From positions 62,001-126,000 of the forward strand of contig NZ_AAQJ02000001.1 in the NCBI RefSeq assembly GCF_000168295.1: 64,000 bases of DNA, in the 5' to 3' direction. Below are positions 11,492 through 21,152 of the stretch, piece after piece. This DNA comes from Rickettsiella grylli (GTDB lineage Bacteria > Pseudomonadota > Gammaproteobacteria > Diplorickettsiales > Diplorickettsiaceae). Made by a program: the position numbers and the translations under genes. The notes beneath the pieces were generated by a model. That model was not told the origin of the DNA. It saw only the letters and a program-made list of their open reading frames with translations, and did not search any database. Numbering within the stretch: position 1 is the first letter of the stretch; each line of letters starts with the position of its first letter.

Positions 11492-12853
11492 ATGTCCAAA
11501 AAAGTGAAACAACAAAAATTAGGGTTGTGGATGCTAACTGCGCTTGTTACAGGGAATATGATAGGATCAGGAATTTTCTTATTACCGGCGTCTTTGGCGG
11601 CTTATGGAAGTATTAGTTTGCTTTCTTGGGTGGTTACTGCAGTGGGCGCTTTGTTACTCGCATTGGTCTTTGCAAAGCTATCGAATGTGATGCCACTTAT
11701 AGGCGGGCCTTATGCTTATTGTCGAGAAGCATTTGGTGAATTTGTTGGGTTTCAAATGGCCTATAATTACTGGATTGCGCTTTGGGTAGGCAATGCAGCA
11801 ATAGTGGTTGCTTTAATCGGGTATTTAAGTTTTTTTTGGCCGAAGTTGGCTCACGACACACGATGGACTTGCTTAGTGAGTATCAGCGTGGTTTGGTTAG
11901 TCACCTTTATTAACATTTTAGGTGTCCGACAAGCCGGTATTTTCCAGTTATTAACAACTGTTTTAAAATTGATCCCGTTGCTACTGATTGCTTTAGTCGG
12001 TATTTTTTACATTCATCCTCACTTTTTAAGTGCATTCAATTTATCAGGCCAGTCTAATTTAAAAGCATTTAGTGGTGCTGCCACGTTAACTTTATGGTCT
12101 TTTATTGGTTTAGAGTCGGCTTCGGTTCCTGCCGGACATGTCAATAATCCGCACCGTACTATCCCCAAAGCGACTATTTTGGGCGTTGTTATCACCACAG
12201 TAGTTTATTTACTGAGCAGTACTGCAGCAATGGGTGTAATGCCATTAACCGTGCTTGCGCATTCTAATGCCCCTTATGCAGATGCCGCACGAATAATGTT
12301 TGGACCCATCGGGAGCATTTTAGTTGCCATTGGCGCGGTCATTTCGTGTTTGGGTGCTTTAAATGGCTGGGTTCTACTTCAAGGCCAAATTCCATTAGCG
12401 GCAGCCCAAGATAAGCTTTTTCCTGCTGTTTTTCTAAAAAAATCAAAAAGTGGCACGCCTATCGTCGGTTTAATTGTTTCTAGTATTTTAATTAGCTTAT
12501 TATTATTAATGACGCTTAATCATAGTTTGGTTAAACAATTTACACTTATTATTTTACTTGCAACATTAGCCTCGCTGATTCCCTATTTTTTAACTACCAT
12601 GTCTGAGTTAGTTATTTTTTATAAATATCCTGGGCTTTTTAAAAAGGATAGAAAATTATTGCGTTCGGTGATTATTGCAATTTTAGCCGGAATTTATTCC
12701 TTTTGGGTTATTATAGGTTCCGGTAAAGAAATTGTGTTTTATGGAACTTTATTGTTATTGAGTAGTGTACCGGTGTATGTATGGATGAAATGGCGTTCTT
12801 CTTCGAATGGAAATGTTATAAACGTAAATGAGCAATCTTTACCTTTACCCTGA
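11492..12853 (+). CDS. APC-family amino-acid permease
   Basis: A 453-residue inner-membrane transporter of the amino acid-polyamine-organocation superfamily with about 12 predicted membrane segments. The first helix carries the family substrate motif GNMIGSGIF at about 17-25. The overall pattern is closest to basic amino-acid or agmatine antiporters of the AdiC type, a group common in Legionellales, but the substrate cannot be read from the sequence. The stop TGA overlaps the TGAGG that serves as ribosome binding site for the following mechanosensitive channel gene, which links the two. Confidence 0.9.
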   Translation: MSKKVKQQKLGLWMLTALVTGNMIGSGIFLLPASLAAYGSISLLSWVVTAVGALLLALVFAKLSNVMPLIGGPYAYCREAFGEFVGFQMAYNYWIALWVGNAAIVVALIGYLSFFWPKLAHDTRWTCLVSISVVWLVTFINILGVRQAGIFQLLTTVLKLIPLLLIALVGIFYIHPHFLSAFNLSGQSNLKAFSGAATLTLWSFIGLESASVPAGHVNNPHRTIPKATILGVVITTVVYLLSSTAAMGVMPLTVLAHSNAPYADAARIMFGPIGSILVAIGAVISCLGALNGWVLLQGQIPLAAAQDKLFPAVFLKKSKSGTPIVGLIVSSILISLLLLMTLNHSLVKQFTLIILLATLASLIPYFLTTMSELVIFYKYPGLFKKDRKLLRSVIIAILAGIYSFWVIIGSGKEIVFYGTLLLLSSVPVYVWMKWRSSSNGNVINVNEQSLPLP

Positions 12854-12861
12854 GGCATCGT

Positions 12862-15800
12862 TTGTACCAGTTATTTTTTTTATTATTTATTTTATTCAAC
12901 GGGTTTTGTTCTCCAGCCTTTGCTGAGTTTAATGATTCCCCTTTATTTAATTTAACGCAGAAGCAATTCATTGCGGATAAGACGCATAGTGATTTACTAA
13001 GAAGAAAACTGCAAAGTTTGCGTAATGAGCAAAAGAATGCATCACCTACGGTTAGCAAGCAATCTCTTGAACGTCTTGATTTAATGATTGAAATGGCAAA
13101 AGCGGATTTAGAAAGCATTAATTTAAGTTTGAAAACAATACAACAGTCTGTCGATTTAATTCAAGATTCCATTCGAAATACACCCGAGCAATGGGAAATT
13201 CCAATTTCCTCAGGTTCTTCCCAAAAACGTGAACATCAACAAACCGTGTTACAACAAACTTTACAGGAAAAAAGAAATTTATCTGCTTTACAACAAAAAA
13301 GGATTAAGGTGTTGCTAGGTGCGCGTGAAACGCTTCAGCAAACCATTAATTTTTCTGAAAAATGGCAACAAAATTTGCAGAGAAATTATCAATTACAACA
13401 ACAGGCCAATCGGCAAGCCTCGCTTGATGTACTTGCCGTAAAATTACAACACGATCAACAAAAATGGATGCAACGATTAAATCAATGGCGTGAAGAATTA
13501 AAAAAAGCCGAAGTAACCGGGTTTATCAATAATTATTCCTATCACAAAACAGAGTTTAAATTATTTGAAGCCGAAGAAAAAAATAATTTATTAGAAACTG
13601 AATTAAATGCATTAAAACTATCGAATAGATTACAAGATTTAGCGGCTGTATTTAATCAAAAATTATCATTGACTACGCTCAGTAATTTGCAGCATCAGAT
13701 TGAAACATTAAGTGACCAAATCAGCGCGTCAATTGATTTAGTTCATAATAAAACGAAATTTCTTAAAAATTATTTGATGATCATGAATAAAAATTTACCA
13801 AAGGACGGCGTTCATGATGAAAGTAAGCAGGTAGAAATAGGGCCATTAAAAGAAATTATACACGGGTACCAAAGTTTGTTTGTTAAAATGCAAGAATTGG
13901 CTAAAGGCGTGAATGCCCAACAAGCCTTCATCACAAAACAATTAAAACTTCAACTGGCTAATAGACAAACATTACCGGGTTGGAATTTAAATGCGTGGGT
14001 TGGTTTAGGTCAAACTATTTTTCAAATTCCTACATTAACACTTGATAAATTAGCGGGGCTTTATGAACCTGTTTTCAATAAACTTGAGTTAGTATCGAAT
14101 TGGCAATGGCTTATTGTTTTGTTGAGTATATTGATATGGTTTGCTATTTGGTTAAAGTTAAGACGATTTTTAGCGGTTGATAGAGTACGCTTGCAACAAC
14201 GGAGTCGGGGATTTTTTTCTGCACAAACCGTGATAGTGGTATTGCAATTGATGCAACGCCATTTATCGGGAATTATGTTATTGGTCGGTTTAATAGGATT
14301 ATTATTTTTATTAAATATACCCATAAAATTATTTTCTTTAATTATTAGTATGAGTGTTGTCTGTCTACTATTTAGTATTGTTATTCAACTTGCCCATATT
14401 TTATTACTTGAAAATACCACGGATGAGAGTGGTCACGATGTTAGGCTTTATTATCGTTTACGAACGACACTATTGATTGGCGGTATAGTGACGCTTGCTG
14501 CAATTTTAGTGAATCAATTGCCAGTCAATTATGAAATTCAAGATTTGTTTGGTCGTTTATTTATGTTGTTTTTGCTCATTGTTGCTTTAGTTTTAATGAA
14601 AAGCTGGGAAGTTGTCCCCACATTACTGGAGCCTTATATAGAAAATAAACACGCTTATTTAAAACGAGTTATTCGCTGGTTGAGTTTTTTAATTCCCTTT
14701 AGCTTACTCACTAATGCGTTAATAGGGCTTGTGGGTTATGTCGAACTCGCGTGGGCTATTGCACATTACCAAGGTTTGTTCTTGGTTGCGTTAACGGCGT
14801 ATTTACTGCTTCGAGGACTTTTAGATGAGTTAATTCGTTGGGTCTCTGAATTATGTATTCGCCATTTTAGGAATGGTTGGTTATGGAGTCAAGCGTTATT
14901 AAAACCTTTTCATCAAATTTTAAAATTAATATTATTAATTTTGTCAATAATGGGTTTATTTGAACTTTACGGTTGGGGAGATAGGGTTCCGTTACTGAAT
15001 ACGAGTCTTGTAAAATTACTTTCTAAGAAGTTATTCGTTATCTCAAGTACGGCAACGGTGACAGGGGTAACCGTTTTGCAATTAGCAGTATTAATAGTCG
15101 TTTTAATTTGGGTTGCTCACTGGTCACGCGAATTTGCTTATCGTTGGTTGTTTGCACATACTAAAGATTTGGGGCTACGTAATAGTTTAGCTATTTTCAC
15201 GCATTATACACTGATCGCGATTGGAATTACGATTGGACTAAATATTTTAGGTTTAAATTGGGGAAATATATCAGTTATTTTAGGACTTTTTTCATTAGGT
15301 GTGGGATTAGGCCTGCGTGATCTCTTTAACAATTTTTTTACAGGGATTTTTTTATTATTAGAAAGACCTGTAAAGGTTGGGGATTGGGTTACTGTGGGTA
15401 ATTATGATGGGCAAGTTTCACATATTGGCGCGCGATCCATTACAGTAACGACGGATGATCGCCAAGAATTATTAGTTCCGAATGCCGATATTTTTAGTAA
15501 AAATTTCATTAATTGGACGCATCGAGATAGCGTAGTACGCGGTGCTTTAGTTACTATCAAAACAAATCGCAAGGATAACCCGCAACGAATTAAAGATATT
15601 ATTTTAGAAGTATTAGCCACAATACCAAAAATTTTAACCAATCCAAAACCTGAAGTTTATTTCAAAGAAATTGATAAAGTTTTATTAGAATTTAAAGTCG
15701 AATATTATGTCGATTTGAATCATATTAGTTCGCGATCGAGTGTTCGGTCACAATTTTTATTTAGTTTATGGGAACGCTTTGTTGATGAGGGCATTTTGCC

Positions 15801-15867
15801 GCCAGAAGCTCCTCACGATGTCCATCTTGAAGGTAAGTTGGAATTAAATTCTGATCCACCCGTTTAA
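12862..15867 (+). CDS. Large MscS-family mechanosensitive channel (MscK-like)
   Basis: A 1001-residue channel that should release solutes on hypo-osmotic shock. It has a signal peptide (MYQLFFLLFILFNGFCSPAFA, likely cut before Glu), a long coiled-coil periplasmic region to about residue 400, a block of roughly ten membrane helices, and a C-terminal MscS core with the Gly/Ala-rich pore helix (about residues 800-825) followed by ERPVKVGDWV. This layout matches MscK and MscM of Escherichia coli. The start is TTG at 12862, with GAGG six bases upstream in the permease stop region. murG begins nine bases downstream. Confidence 0.9.
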   Translation: MYQLFFLLFILFNGFCSPAFAEFNDSPLFNLTQKQFIADKTHSDLLRRKLQSLRNEQKNASPTVSKQSLERLDLMIEMAKADLESINLSLKTIQQSVDLIQDSIRNTPEQWEIPISSGSSQKREHQQTVLQQTLQEKRNLSALQQKRIKVLLGARETLQQTINFSEKWQQNLQRNYQLQQQANRQASLDVLAVKLQHDQQKWMQRLNQWREELKKAEVTGFINNYSYHKTEFKLFEAEEKNNLLETELNALKLSNRLQDLAAVFNQKLSLTTLSNLQHQIETLSDQISASIDLVHNKTKFLKNYLMIMNKNLPKDGVHDESKQVEIGPLKEIIHGYQSLFVKMQELAKGVNAQQAFITKQLKLQLANRQTLPGWNLNAWVGLGQTIFQIPTLTLDKLAGLYEPVFNKLELVSNWQWLIVLLSILIWFAIWLKLRRFLAVDRVRLQQRSRGFFSAQTVIVVLQLMQRHLSGIMLLVGLIGLLFLLNIPIKLFSLIISMSVVCLLFSIVIQLAHILLLENTTDESGHDVRLYYRLRTTLLIGGIVTLAAILVNQLPVNYEIQDLFGRLFMLFLLIVALVLMKSWEVVPTLLEPYIENKHAYLKRVIRWLSFLIPFSLLTNALIGLVGYVELAWAIAHYQGLFLVALTAYLLLRGLLDELIRWVSELCIRHFRNGWLWSQALLKPFHQILKLILLILSIMGLFELYGWGDRVPLLNTSLVKLLSKKLFVISSTATVTGVTVLQLAVLIVVLIWVAHWSREFAYRWLFAHTKDLGLRNSLAIFTHYTLIAIGITIGLNILGLNWGNISVILGLFSLGVGLGLRDLFNNFFTGIFLLLERPVKVGDWVTVGNYDGQVSHIGARSITVTTDDRQELLVPNADIFSKNFINWTHRDSVVRGALVTIKTNRKDNPQRIKDIILEVLATIPKILTNPKPEVYFKEIDKVLLEFKVEYYVDLNHISSRSSVRSQFLFSLWERFVDEGILPPEAPHDVHLEGKLELNSDPPV

Positions 15868-15876
15868 ACGTTATTT

Positions 15877-16962
15877 ATGGAAAAAAAAATTAAAATGATT
15901 TTCACAGGAGGTGGTTCATCAGGGCACGTAACGCCCAATTTACCATTAATAGTGGCTTTGAAAAATAAGGGCGCAGCTATTTTCTATGTGGGCTCTCAAA
16001 AAGGAATAGAGCGTGCGCTGATTAAACCTTTGAAAATCCCCTATTATGGAATTACAGTCGGTAAATTGCATCGGTATTGGACATGGAAAAATTTATTAAC
16101 CCCTTTTCAATTATTCATGGGAATCGTACAAAGTTTTCTTATTTTTCGAAAAATCAAGCCGGATATTTTATTTTCGAAAGGAGGGTTTGTTGCTTTACCA
16201 GTTGTTATCGCGGCTCAATTAAATGGAATTCCGATAGTCATTCATGAATCTGATTTGACACCGGGCTTAGCCAATCGACTTAGCTTTCCTTTCGCTCAAT
16301 TGATTTGTATTACCTTTCCTGAAACGGCTAACTATTTTAAAAATAAGCATAAAATAGTATTGACCGGCATGCCCATTCGAGATTTTCTGAAACACGGAAA
16401 TTGCGAAAAAGGTTTAAAACTGTGTGGATTTTGTAATCGACAAAAACCTGTTTTGTTAGTAATGGCAGGAGGTTTAGGCTCAATTCATATCAACCAATCG
16501 ATTCGACGTTTAGTAAAACCCTTACTAAAAAAATTTTATGTGATACATATTTGCGGTAAAAATAAATTGGATCCTGAATTTAATGGAATGAAGGGATATA
16601 AACAGTTTGAGTATCTAGAAGATAAGTTTCCGAACGTTTTAGCGTGTGCAGATTTAGTGGTTAGCCGTGCAGGCGCGACGTCTATTTATGAATTATTAAC
16701 GTTAAATAAGCCTCATATTTTGTTACCGTTATCAAAAAAAGCAAGTCGCGGTGATCAAATAGACAATGCAAATTATTTTTCTCGTTTAGGTCTCAGTCAG
16801 GTTATTTATTTTGAGGAATTTTCAGATGAAAAATTACTTAAAATTATCGTTGAAAGTTTTGAAAATTTAGATAAGTTAAAACATAAATTAAGTGAATATA
16901 AACCGCTTAATGGCACACAAAATATTATAGAAACGTTAATTTCGTTTTCACATCATTCCTAG
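15877..16962 (+). CDS. murG: MurG-type GlcNAc transferase, Firmicutes type
   Basis: Adds GlcNAc to lipid I to make lipid II at the inner face of the membrane. The 361 residues form two Rossmann domains; the loop TGGGSSGH lies near residues 10-17. The lipid-acceptor region reads IHESDLTPGLANR and the nucleotide site RGDQIDNANYF. From memory these match Staphylococcus-type MurG (HESD, GDQIDNA) and differ from enterobacterial MurG (HEQNGIAG, DRQQYWNA). It lies outside any division cluster, behind a mechanosensitive channel gene. Whether it is the only MurG of the genome cannot be seen here; a related glycosyltransferase with another acceptor is possible. Confidence 0.85.
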   Translation: MEKKIKMIFTGGGSSGHVTPNLPLIVALKNKGAAIFYVGSQKGIERALIKPLKIPYYGITVGKLHRYWTWKNLLTPFQLFMGIVQSFLIFRKIKPDILFSKGGFVALPVVIAAQLNGIPIVIHESDLTPGLANRLSFPFAQLICITFPETANYFKNKHKIVLTGMPIRDFLKHGNCEKGLKLCGFCNRQKPVLLVMAGGLGSIHINQSIRRLVKPLLKKFYVIHICGKNKLDPEFNGMKGYKQFEYLEDKFPNVLACADLVVSRAGATSIYELLTLNKPHILLPLSKKASRGDQIDNANYFSRLGLSQVIYFEEFSDEKLLKIIVESFENLDKLKHKLSEYKPLNGTQNIIETLISFSHHS

Positions 16963-17007: not shown

Positions 17008-19431
17008 TTAATTTTTTTCTAATTTATAAAATATATCGATACCGTTAGCAAAATCACTGCGGGTAACTTGTAGCGAGAAATTTTTATTTAAAAGATAATT
17101 TATTTCTAAAATACTGATGGGATCTAATAAACCAAGACTGTAAGACACATTCAGCCTAGGAGAGAGTTTTTTTCCCACGATTATCGACGTATTTTGTTCT
17201 AAGCGATTAGTGCGCGGATCAAAAATAGGTTTCACACCAATGGTTAATTGATCTAACCCTATTTTTTTTTGAAATTTATTAATAAGGCCGCTTAAATTAT
17301 TTTTTTCATGACCTAAATGAGTCGCAGCATTTAATAGTAATTGTGTACTTGCAGCGCTGATTTCATTACTGGCTTGACCTGTGATCAAATAAGAAAGCAT
17401 ATCCAGGGATGATTTGATTCTATTAGAAGGATTTGCAAATAAAGTAATCTGAGGATTTTGTAATCTCCCTCTTATATGTAAGCCTATATCTACGGGAACA
17501 GGTCTTGATTGATAGGAAAATTCGGATTGAATAAAATGATTAGAACCTAGTTTAGATTTAATCTCATTGGCGTTGTTAGAAGTGGAGGCAGGTAAAATAA
17601 AAATATTTCGGTGCGCAGTAATATGAACCAGAGGGTTATTAATGGGCATATTCACGAAATTTAATGTAGAATTTTCCGCTAATTTTAAACGTTGACCATA
17701 ATAACTGTATTCTCCAGGAAAAAGTTGAAGTTGCCCTGTTGCGAATAAAGGATGATCAGATTCTTGTTTTAGAGACAATGAACCTTTCAATTGAGCGCGA
17801 AGGCCTTGATAATAAAGGTGAATATCATTGCCCATTTTTATTTTGAGATTACTTTTTAAGTTAAACGGTAAAGTTAACGTTTTTTTCTTATCTGAAAATT
17901 GTACATCGCTTGATAATTCGATGAGATTATAATTTTGTGGATTAATTTTAATTTTAGCTTTAGGAAATAGAATAAAACCTTCTGTTTCAACTTGGTTAAT
18001 CGTTGCATTGATCGTTAATTGGGGGGAAGCGATTATCTGATAATTTGGATTGTGAACGAGGGTGACATTTTCCCCCTTTATTTTTATTAATGTTGATAAA
18101 TGAGGTTTTAATAAATCAGTTTTACTAGTAAATGTGATGAATCCTTTACCGGAATAAATTTGACCGATACCCTGCAAACGATGTTTATCGGTGTGTAATT
18201 GGTAGTTTATATTTTTTAAATGAAGGCCTAAGCTTGGGATAGAGATACTGGCTTGTTGTAAATGAAGCGTGAAAGTAACCGCAGGTTTCTGCAATAAACC
18301 CGAAATTTTTAATTGAGCATTAAAAAAGCCGTGACTGCGTTTAAACTCAGGAAACAATCTCGTTAGAAAATTTAAATTTTTAAGGGTTAAATCAATCGTT
18401 GCATTGATTTTCTGTTTGAATTTTAACGGGGAGCCGACTTGATAATGAGGTAAAAGTAAGTAAGCAATGAATTGGTTTTTATTGGTTTCGAACGTTTGGA
18501 TTGACGTTTCTAATCCATTTCTTGAAACAAAACTATTCATGTGTGTCTGCGGAACGATTATCGAAGTCAGCTGTTGGTCTTTACATCTTTTATTCAGTTT
18601 AAATTGAGAGAGAGTGCCTTGCAATGAAAAAGGTAAAAAAGATCCGGTTAATTTTAATTTTACTGGAAAAATTTTTAATCGTTTATTATTAAAATCAGAA
18701 GCAGTGAAGTCAAAAAACCATTTTTTATCTTTAGTATTTATAGTTAAAGTACTTTGAATTTGTTTGAGTTGCCAATCGTTCCATTGTAGATTTGTTTTTT
18801 CAAGCCCTATATTAAATTTGGGATATTGAAAAATTCCACGAATAGTCCCTTGTAAAGTGATGTTATTTTTTAGGTGGGGGAAAAAGCGAGCTAATTCGTT
18901 AACCGTTAATAGCCAATGAATATGCCATTGTTGGTGAATAGAACCGTACAGTTTGAGATTTAAATTTTCAGTTTTTATATTTATTTGATGAATGACAGCA
19001 GAACTAATTTTTAAATAATGAAAAATTTCTGGAATGTGGATGTTTTTTCTTTGGTCCGTTTTTGATTTTTTTTGAATAGTATGAATAGTATTCGTTTTTT
19101 GTTTTATAAAAAGGTTTAATTGATCAATAAAGATCGAATTAAAAGTTAGTTTTCCTGCTAAAAAACTTCGCCAATTTAAATCAAACTCTGCCTCAGAGAT
19201 ATAAAAATTAATTTTATTATTTTTATAATTAAGTTTCTTTAAATAAATGGGACCCAATAATCGTCCATGAAGTGTATTTATTTTTAGTTGCCCTGGCAGA
19301 AATTGTTTTCCAATCAATAGCGCTGCTTCTAAACCTTTTTCTGTGTTTAGAAATAAATAGCCACTGATTAAAAAAATACCTATTAATAAACTACTCAGCC
19401 ATTTAAGCCAAATTATTTTTTTATTTTTCAT
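17008..19431 (-). CDS. tamB: Translocation and assembly module protein TamB, short form
   Basis: An inner-membrane-anchored periplasmic bridge that works with TamA in outer-membrane protein insertion and lipid transport. The 807 residues have one N-terminal anchor (about 9-28), long beta-rich repeats and a conserved C-terminal DUF490 region with phrases such as GELQ-like barrel edges near residues 565-800 (for example TGQASNEISAAS). It is much shorter than the roughly 1250 residues of the Escherichia coli protein, the reduction falling in the repeat region. Its start overlaps the tamA stop by four bases. Confidence 0.88.
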   Translation of the reverse strand: MKNKKIIWLKWLSSLLIGIFLISGYLFLNTEKGLEAALLIGKQFLPGQLKINTLHGRLLGPIYLKKLNYKNNKINFYISEAEFDLNWRSFLAGKLTFNSIFIDQLNLFIKQKTNTIHTIQKKSKTDQRKNIHIPEIFHYLKISSAVIHQINIKTENLNLKLYGSIHQQWHIHWLLTVNELARFFPHLKNNITLQGTIRGIFQYPKFNIGLEKTNLQWNDWQLKQIQSTLTINTKDKKWFFDFTASDFNNKRLKIFPVKLKLTGSFLPFSLQGTLSQFKLNKRCKDQQLTSIIVPQTHMNSFVSRNGLETSIQTFETNKNQFIAYLLLPHYQVGSPLKFKQKINATIDLTLKNLNFLTRLFPEFKRSHGFFNAQLKISGLLQKPAVTFTLHLQQASISIPSLGLHLKNINYQLHTDKHRLQGIGQIYSGKGFITFTSKTDLLKPHLSTLIKIKGENVTLVHNPNYQIIASPQLTINATINQVETEGFILFPKAKIKINPQNYNLIELSSDVQFSDKKKTLTLPFNLKSNLKIKMGNDIHLYYQGLRAQLKGSLSLKQESDHPLFATGQLQLFPGEYSYYGQRLKLAENSTLNFVNMPINNPLVHITAHRNIFILPASTSNNANEIKSKLGSNHFIQSEFSYQSRPVPVDIGLHIRGRLQNPQITLFANPSNRIKSSLDMLSYLITGQASNEISAASTQLLLNAATHLGHEKNNLSGLINKFQKKIGLDQLTIGVKPIFDPRTNRLEQNTSIIVGKKLSPRLNVSYSLGLLDPISILEINYLLNKNFSLQVTRSDFANGIDIFYKLEKN

Positions 19432-21152
19432 AAGAAATCAAAACCCATCGTGAATTGAAACCGTATGGGATGTGAAGGAATATCTAAGGCTTTGCCTGCG
19501 GTCAGTTCTAAAGGCCCTAATGGAGATGCCCACACCAAGCCAATACCCGCTCCTTTTTGCAAATGAATCGGAAAATCATTGACAGCATTTCCAGCGTCAA
19601 AGAAAAGAGCACCATAAAAATTACGGATCAGTCGATGTTGATATTCAATGCTTCCAACCAATAAATAACGACCGGGACCGAGAGATTGATAAGCATAACC
19701 CCGAATGTTTTGGCTTCCTCCTGCGTAAAAAAGCAAAGAGGGAGGAAAATTGGAAAGATTAGAAGTGAGGGTATACCCTATGTCTCCTCGAAACAATAAT
19801 CGGTTATTATCATTCCAACTGAATATGTATTTACCTTGTAATTCAGTTTGTAAAAAACTAACGGTTGATAACACAGGTTGAGCGGCACCTTGTAGCCTAA
19901 AATTGAATCGATAGCCTTGTAAGGAGAAAAGAGGATTATCCGATTTACTGTACGATAGGTTTATACCTGGAGTGAGTAAACGTGCGTTTTTTGTTGGCTG
20001 GTTGAGATAGTTGAATCGTTCCACTTGATAATTTAAAAATAAGTTGCGTTGCCAGCCATTCCATTCACATGTACTCGTGGTGCCTATTTGTTGCGTCGTG
20101 CGAGTTACTTGAGCTAGTTTTTTTCTAACGATGGCAAAATTAATAGTATAATTATCCGTATTCGGATGTTTTCCAGGAAAAGTGTACGTTGTTTGGAAAC
20201 CGTTTTGTATTTTAGATAATTGGCTAAAAATACTTAAACGATGCCCCGCTTTGTTGAGATAACGGGATTCCCAACCTAACGTTCCGCGAACACCAACGTC
20301 TGTTCCGTAACCTATCCCTGCGGTATATTGTTGAGAGGGACGTGGTGTTAATATTAAAGAAATAGGCTGATGTTGATTGAAACTATTTATAGGAGAATCA
20401 AGAATAGATACATTCTGAAAGTACCCACTTTTGTTTAAATTTTCTTGTAATTTTAATAATTGTACCGAAGAATAAGGATCACCCACCTTAAAGGGAATAT
20501 AACGTTCTAATAAGCGATTAGAAAGTATAGATTGTTTGAAGGTAATAGGACCAAAATAATAACGCGGTCCTGTATTTAATGTTAAGCTAATTTGAGCGGT
20601 ATAGGCGTTCCGATTAATTAAAATAATGTGTTTAGAAAAATAAGCAGATAGATAACCATCCGCAACAACCTGAGCAAGTAAATTTTCTTTTGCATCCTCG
20701 TAGGCTTTACTACAAAAACGTTCGCCTTGATGCAAAGGAAAATCATTCATTAAATTTTTGATCTGGGGATCATCGGGGGTATTTACAATGGAAAGTTCGA
20801 GCGTTGTGATTTTTAAAGGAGGGCCTGCGGAAATTTGATACCTTACTTCCCAATTTTCACCTATTTTTTGGACGGTGCGATGAATAGACGGTTTAAAATA
20901 ACCATAAATTTCTAAAGTTTTTTTGATGTCACGAATTCCATGGTTAGACCAGAATTGGATATCTTCGGTGGAAGGTTCTTTTAAAGTCTGTAAGCTATGG
21001 TTCAGCCGCTGTTGAACAGGGCTCATAAGCGCTTGCGGTAACCCTTGTATGCGGTAGGTTATATGAAGACATTGCGTAGTATACCCAGAAGAGACGAAAA
21101 AAAGGTTTAGCCACGTCATAGCGGCTATAATCGATTTTATTTTTCTTATCAT
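19428..21152 (-). CDS. tamA: Translocation and assembly module protein TamA (Omp85)
   Basis: An Omp85-family outer-membrane barrel. A signal peptide (about 1-25) is followed by three POTRA domains (to about 255) and a 16-stranded barrel. The L6-type motif appears as GGSQNIRGYAYQSLGPG. At 574 residues it matches TamA (about 577) rather than BamA (about 800). The partner tamB follows with a four-base overlap. An eight-base inverted repeat overlaps the start codon at 21152, so translation or transcription may be controlled there. Confidence 0.92.
   Translation of the reverse strand: MIRKIKSIIAAMTWLNLFFVSSGYTTQCLHITYRIQGLPQALMSPVQQRLNHSLQTLKEPSTEDIQFWSNHGIRDIKKTLEIYGYFKPSIHRTVQKIGENWEVRYQISAGPPLKITTLELSIVNTPDDPQIKNLMNDFPLHQGERFCSKAYEDAKENLLAQVVADGYLSAYFSKHIILINRNAYTAQISLTLNTGPRYYFGPITFKQSILSNRLLERYIPFKVGDPYSSVQLLKLQENLNKSGYFQNVSILDSPINSFNQHQPISLILTPRPSQQYTAGIGYGTDVGVRGTLGWESRYLNKAGHRLSIFSQLSKIQNGFQTTYTFPGKHPNTDNYTINFAIVRKKLAQVTRTTQQIGTTSTCEWNGWQRNLFLNYQVERFNYLNQPTKNARLLTPGINLSYSKSDNPLFSLQGYRFNFRLQGAAQPVLSTVSFLQTELQGKYIFSWNDNNRLLFRGDIGYTLTSNLSNFPPSLLFYAGGSQNIRGYAYQSLGPGRYLLVGSIEYQHRLIRNFYGALFFDAGNAVNDFPIHLQKGAGIGLVWASPLGPLELTAGKALDIPSHPIRFQFTMGFDFL

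Follow-up and report, generated by a model that had tools for sequence, protein, structure and literature searches.

MurG is essential, is usually encoded beside ftsW and murC, and is thought to work with the products of these genes. Ordinary MurG, as known from E. coli, P. aeruginosa and A. baumannii and described by the model TIGR01133, has GT28 domains, a GT-B fold, glycine loops and a conserved glutamine. In gammaproteobacteria it carries an HEQN motif and its gene lies between ftsW and murC. A second type, with HESD and SRGDQxxNA motifs, is represented by the S. aureus protein and recognized by NF009102 (PRK12446), a MurG equivalog model. The MurG of Legionella adelaidensis (WP_058461729.1) is also of this type. 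In the open-access literature searched, we found no description of a replacement of murG across families.

Here we analyze a murG gene in a 64,000-nucleotide stretch of Rickettsiella grylli DNA (the window). Its product resembles ordinary MurG in its GT28 domains, predicted GT-B fold, glycine loops and conserved glutamine, but is only 22% identical to the E. coli protein, has HESD instead of HEQN and falls below the TIGR01133 cut-off. It resembles the S. aureus type in passing the NF009102 cut-off and in both motifs; unlike that type, it occurs in a gammaproteobacterium with a diaminopimelate-type MurE, and it is 43% identical to an S. aureus MurG. The L. adelaidensis protein, about 47–48% identical to that of the window, belongs to the same type and the same clade, as do the proteins of the f41 genomes, although the L. 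adelaidensis gene has different neighbors. We consider it highly probable (roughly 0.88) that the window murG is an old, transferred replacement from outside the Gammaproteobacteria, most likely working, and that the native murG was lost.

Protein type, motifs and predicted fold

The gene and the motifs that characterize its product are as follows.

15877–16962, + strand: murG of the NF009102/PRK12446 ('Firmicutes') type, 361 aa, the only MurG found in the genome
15904–15927, + strand: first glycine loop TGGGSSGH, residues 10–17; G12, G13, G16 and H17 do not vary among 25 aligned type proteins
16240–16278, + strand: IHESDLTPGLANR, residues 122–134, with the type-specific HESD motif; ordinary MurG has HEQN there
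16747–16779, + strand: RGDQIDNANYF, residues 291–301, with Q294 and N297, both invariant in the 25 type proteins

The open reading frame is complete, with an ATG start. Its product scored 409.7 bits against NF009102 (curated cut-off, 339; E = 8.6e-123) and 223.5 bits against TIGR01133, below the curated cut-off of 250.25, while both GT28 domains exceeded their Pfam cut-offs (PF03033, 115 bits versus 26.2; PF04101, 83.8 bits versus 22). Among named control proteins, S. aureus MurG behaved alike, scoring 425.7 with NF009102 and missing the TIGR01133 cut-off at 244, and E. coli MurG gave the reverse pattern (129.4 and 379.1). L. adelaidensis MurG was over both cut-offs (440 and 257.4), just passing the second. 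The enzyme family is one already known. An AlphaFold2 model built on a six-sequence alignment (pLDDT 89.5) predicts a GT-B fold closest to MurG: the first six Foldseek matches were chains of the MurG entries 1nlm, 3s2u, 1f0k and 7d1i, with TM scores of 0.75–0.81 by query, and these closest solved structures found were 22–24% identical to the window protein.

Both motifs quoted in an earlier, sequence-only reading are present, and the contrast drawn there with the motifs of proteobacterial MurG was borne out by named proteins and, for ordinary MurG, by row counts. The equivalents are HESDLTPGLANKIA and SRGDQIDNANHFA in S. aureus MurG versus HEQNGIAGLTNKWL and HKDRQQYWNA in E. coli MurG. Serine and aspartate follow HE in 25/25 gammaproteobacterial rows of the type and in 27/27 same-type comparison rows from elsewhere (two of which, from Cytobacillus and Streptomyces, were included without scoring against NF009102), compared with glutamine in 12/13 and asparagine in 13/13 ordinary rows. 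The glutamine at the Q294 position is present in all 13 ordinary rows too. G102, G103, G198, G201 and E272 are also invariant in the 25 type proteins; we take the glycine-loop and donor-site Glu/Gln roles of these conserved residues, Q294 and N297 included, from E. coli structures. Comparison of the window gene with five relatives gave dN values of 0.13–0.18 and dS values of 1.2–1.7, so the gene is under purifying selection.

The lipid II pathway and the division-cluster slot

The window genome comprises 1,581,239 bases in two contigs and is 100% complete by estimate. Profile searches of the whole genome gave one PF03033 and one PF04101 match, making the window murG the sole GT28 match, and found no second murG. 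Other lipid II genes are present: murC with four further Mur-ligase-type matches, murF, mraY, murD and ftsW, and a murE of the diaminopimelate type. Because it is the only MurG in the genome, the window gene most likely encodes the working enzyme, which would add GlcNAc from UDP-GlcNAc to lipid I to make lipid II; judging by MurE, the stem peptide of that lipid I would be of the diaminopimelate type.

The sequence-only reading had also proposed a paralog with another acceptor, that is, a glycolipid or polymer glycosyltransferase rather than the lipid II enzyme. Models for diglucosyl diacylglycerol synthase give low scores (46 bits against a cut-off of 500) that point in this direction, but the gene is the only GT28 match in a genome that retains murC–F, mraY and ftsW, its product exceeds the curated cut-off of the MurG equivalog model, and no other MurG was found that could make lipid II. 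We therefore regard a paralog as very unlikely. Contamination or a chimeric assembly, for which we found no supporting point, is more improbable still: exactly one PF04101 match was found in 15 of the 16 genomes from the family of the window genome (f1), the exception being 64% complete, and the gene occurs in the same order in related loci.

The division cluster lies elsewhere, as the sequence-only reading had supposed. A murD–ftsW–x–murC–murB stretch about 170 kb from the window murG, on the same contig, is devoid of murG; in the locus extracted from it (L067, G000:C1:240000-256000), the order is murB, murC, a 307-aa open reading frame, ftsW and murD. The frame in the usual murG position is the following.

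L067 8895–9818, − strand: FkbM-family methyltransferase (TIGR01444, PF05050), 307 aa, between ftsW and murC

This frame was ruled out as a disguised MurG, as it matches methyltransferases (TIGR01444, 99.8 bits; PF05050, 64.2 bits). It takes up the murG slot upstream of murC in 4 of 14 f1 loci (G000, which is the window genome, G002, G007 and G012, the last on a contig that starts inside the frame). Nine of the 14 have ftsW and then murC with 62–175 bases between them, and in the remaining one (G014) neither the frame nor ftsW was found upstream of murC.

Across type-carrying families, 0/29 murC loci had a MurG match within 1.5 kb upstream of murC, although FtsW was found there in 26/29; these loci include f73 and a 64%-complete f1 genome that has no MurG match. 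In ordinary families, by comparison, a MurG match preceded murC in 17/20 loci, the others being two from f17 and one from f47. Searches of the 29 loci for a native remnant upstream of murC found none, either by tblastn with four ordinary MurGs (E = 0.01) or in a repeat that added the window MurG (E = 0.001). The native murG is absent from its usual place in the window genome, as a replacement entails, and the search for a second copy, both in the division cluster, as the sequence-only reading had suggested, and in the whole genome, ended with none found. The division cluster is also rearranged in one f17 genome (G180; loci L261 and L145): the 1.5 kb preceding murC contain no FtsW or MurG match, and an ordinary murG is located elsewhere on that contig, at a distance of about 17 kb.

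Gene neighborhoods of the S. aureus-type murG

The neighbors of the window murG are listed below.

11492–12853, + strand: APC-family amino acid/polyamine antiporter gene, below curated cut-offs
12862–15867, + strand: gene for a mechanosensitive channel of the MscS superfamily (MscK/MscM-like), scoring under the curated MscK/MscM cut-offs
17008–19431, − strand: tamB-like gene (NF047952 at 237 bits, below cut-off), transcribed convergently to murG
19428–21152, − strand: tamA-like gene (NF047950, 385 bits, below cut-off)

The sequence-only reading had described murG as standing alone after an MscS channel gene. The channel gene is indeed upstream, but the word alone calls for a qualification: murG starts 9 bases past the end of that gene (15867/15877), and an MscK-type gene lies directly upstream of murG in 9/9 related loci (genes named by reading the sequences). 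The channel gene in turn begins 8 bases after the antiporter gene, and from this spacing the antiporter gene is possibly the first of the same transcript as murG. Scans for promoter-like patterns (19 sites versus 22.4 in shuffles) and terminator-like patterns (8 sites versus 5.0 in shuffles; s.d. 1.8) were not used.

On the other side, tamB lies beyond murG in seven of the nine related loci, with one contig ending at murG and one locus having other genes, and several of the nine contain extra genes between murG and tamB. In two loci from Rickettsiella relatives (L062, 7122–8420; L028, 2050–3348), an M20-family peptidase gene, which the window lacks, is found between murG and tamB. An M20 peptidase partner common to Rickettsiella relatives and Legionella was considered as evidence of one insertion and dropped, as BLAST gave no significant match between this peptidase and the one after Legionella murG. 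In the metagenome-assembled genome G014 (L074, 8967–12465), murG is split into two open reading frames and the MscK-type gene is in pieces, reflecting either decay or sequence error.

Beyond f1, neighbors of the replacement gene vary by family: an MscK-type gene in f1 and f92, nadC in f41, accD in f5 and others elsewhere (by reading). The MscK-type gene beside murG in f92 (L083) is 59% identical to that of the window, and the M20 peptidase beside murG in f41 matches the murG-adjacent M20 peptidase of f21 at 56%. In L. adelaidensis, the order is antiporter–nadC–murG–M20 peptidase followed by mreBCD, with murG away from ftsW and murC (11 kb examined). These neighbors recur in two of three f41 loci, while the third shares the nadC side only (by reading); given this matching gene order, f41 probably represents the Legionellaceae. 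Three f41 genomes have ftsW ahead of murC and lack a murG between the two.

Distribution, phylogeny and origin

Overall, 21 of 369 gammaproteobacterial genomes drawn exceeded the NF009102 cut-off, representing 11 families: f1 (four genomes); f41, f42 and f95 (three each); f5 (two); and f21, f25, f78, f92, f114 and f129 (one each). Each of the 21 had a single NF009102 match (E = 0.001), scoring 353.6–455.5 bits compared with 176.1 bits for the best ordinary full-length match; a partial match in f73, at a contig end, fell between them at 294 bits. Of 398 Pseudomonadota drawn separately, the window genome alone passed E = 1e-80. Because the type is common to ten other gammaproteobacterial families, the event is probably ancient rather than specific to the window genome. 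Outside the class, the type was over cut-off in 30 of 299 genomes from the phylum of a clostridial match and in 4 of 244 from the phylum of a Sericytochromatia match, and it also occurs in Bacilli and Bacteroidota records. Eight gammaproteobacterial genomes at least 94% complete (G068, G310, G038, G092, G341, G031, G051 and G272) had no MurG match, neither to NF009102 at E = 0.001 nor to TIGR01133 at E values up to 1, which reflects missing sequence or further replacement.

We placed the window protein in a 77-row MurG tree, for which the motif filter recovered a protein from 94 of 99 loci and 17 of these were then left out (13 near-copies, one fragment and three ordinary proteins). Twenty-five gammaproteobacterial rows from ten families, the window MurG included, form one clade (86/87, not starred), while f42 groups with two rows from the cyanobacterial phylum (98/84) and f73 has no clear place. 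The ordinary gammaproteobacterial rows stand apart (100/100), as do all ordinary rows (100/99). The same clade appears again, now with 21 gammaproteobacterial rows (92/93, not starred), in a 65-row tree hand-picked from 108 proteins and including named S. aureus, E. coli and Legionella proteins, where the placement of f42 and f73 is weak, with no firm position. In this second tree, the Legionella-like clade takes in a plasmid protein of the Bacteroidota member Aureispira anguillae (L286), which counts against a purely gammaproteobacterial clade and perhaps reflects transfer out of it. Many deep branches are weakly supported in both trees.

Placing the f1 MurG with ordinary gammaproteobacterial MurG, which the sequence-only reading had named as the refuting outcome, was rejected by the AU test (P = 0.0009). 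Together with the sole GT28 match, the division-cluster slot without murG and the grouping with the type from other phyla, this rejection argues for the transferred replacement that the same reading had suggested. It also bears on whether a native murG could have moved and evolved fast enough to imitate the other type. Evolution is fast in the reduced genomes of host-bound bacteria, but the window MurG has a mean identity of 46.5% to the 27 same-type rows from elsewhere versus 26.3% to the 13 ordinary rows, and genomes of 3.1–3.4 Mb (f41, f129 and f21) carry the type too. With the AU result, these figures leave a fast-evolved native gene highly improbable.

Replacement by transfer may have happened once or several times. 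Forcing the 21 gammaproteobacterial rows into one clade costs 4.8 log units and was not rejected (P = 0.068), nor was one clade of all 25 (P = 0.13). The latter had been expected to be rejected for f42; as it stands, we do not claim two origins. For the species background, we built a tree of a ribosomal-protein cluster (27 proteins and 4,232 columns from 31 of 32 genomes, the fragment L228 being left out; SH-aLRT only, midpoint root). One side of a single branch (SH-aLRT 98) holds f1, f92, f41, f21, f129, f5 and f95. The same side contains f28 (which looks Coxiella-like by its MurG), f17 and f30, all with ordinary MurG, as well as f24, f54 and one f78 genome without any MurG match; f17 is sister to f1 plus f92. 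The tree does not include f25, f114 and f73, and f78 is represented by the genome without a MurG match. Family f42 lies on the other side, among standard gammaproteobacteria, and is possibly a second, independent replacement; it carries the type (L088, L090 and L094), and in two of these cases ftsW adjoins murC without murG. An RpoB tree (25 of 29 rows after removal of fragments and of a second copy; the broken row L136 on a branch of 10) has weak support and serves as a hint only, and a MurC tree (39 of 48 rows; nine f1 rows left out and L158 without MurC by the filter) was too weak to decide.

The presence of ordinary murG in f28, f17 and f30, and of neighbors that vary by family, is not expected of a single undisturbed insertion. 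The tree pattern therefore implies either a single gain, after which the two copies coexisted for a while, or repeated transfer. Under the first scenario, an ancestor of the Legionella- and Rickettsiella-like families would have acquired murG from a bacterium outside the Gammaproteobacteria, with clostridia, cyanobacterial relatives and other carriers of the type as candidate donors. The gene would have landed away from the division cluster, both copies would have coexisted for a stage, and the native murG between ftsW and murC would then have been lost. We put at about even odds that this ancestor had two lipid II synthases, which its descendants sorted, most sampled families keeping the foreign enzyme, at scattered locations, and f28, f17 and f30 the native one.

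Alternatively, the gene may have been acquired several times, or passed on later from one Legionella-like family to another. This would account for ordinary murG in f28, f17 and f30 and the position of f17 as sister to f1 plus f92, for the family-specific neighborhoods, and for f42, which neither MurG tree includes in the main clade and which the ribosomal tree puts with standard gammaproteobacteria. Against this, one MurG clade unites 10 of 12 families (the exceptions being f42 and f73, the latter with a partial match), the families placeable in the ribosomal tree lie, except for f42, on one side of one branch, and a single clade of all 25 rows is not rejected. Neighbors common to f1 and f92 (MscK type) and to f41 and f21 (M20 peptidase) point the same way. 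Repeated transfer is a serious candidate that we hold at somewhat under even odds, against one ancestral gain followed by differential loss.

Whether by one gain or several, the family-wide replacement by a distant MurG, in this case in a bacterium whose MurE is of the diaminopimelate type, suggests that phyla can swap this step independently of its neighbors. Inhibitors and structures obtained with MurG from E. coli, Pseudomonas and Acinetobacter may not transfer to relatives of Legionella and Rickettsiella. If the ancestor did carry two synthases, the lipid II step would be a genomic marker splitting the group and a natural experiment on which division-machinery partners MurG needs. A published screen for foreign genes in Coxiella deliberately disregarded genes common to Legionellales (PMC5423948), so swaps that date back to an ancestor can escape notice.

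The type is also found among cell-wall genes on a plasmid. In Anoxybacillus amylolyticus (L284), a plasmid-borne MurG of the type lies beside genes for a D-Ala-D-Ala ligase, predicted to be vanG-like (41% identity), and MurF, as well as a circular bacteriocin gene.
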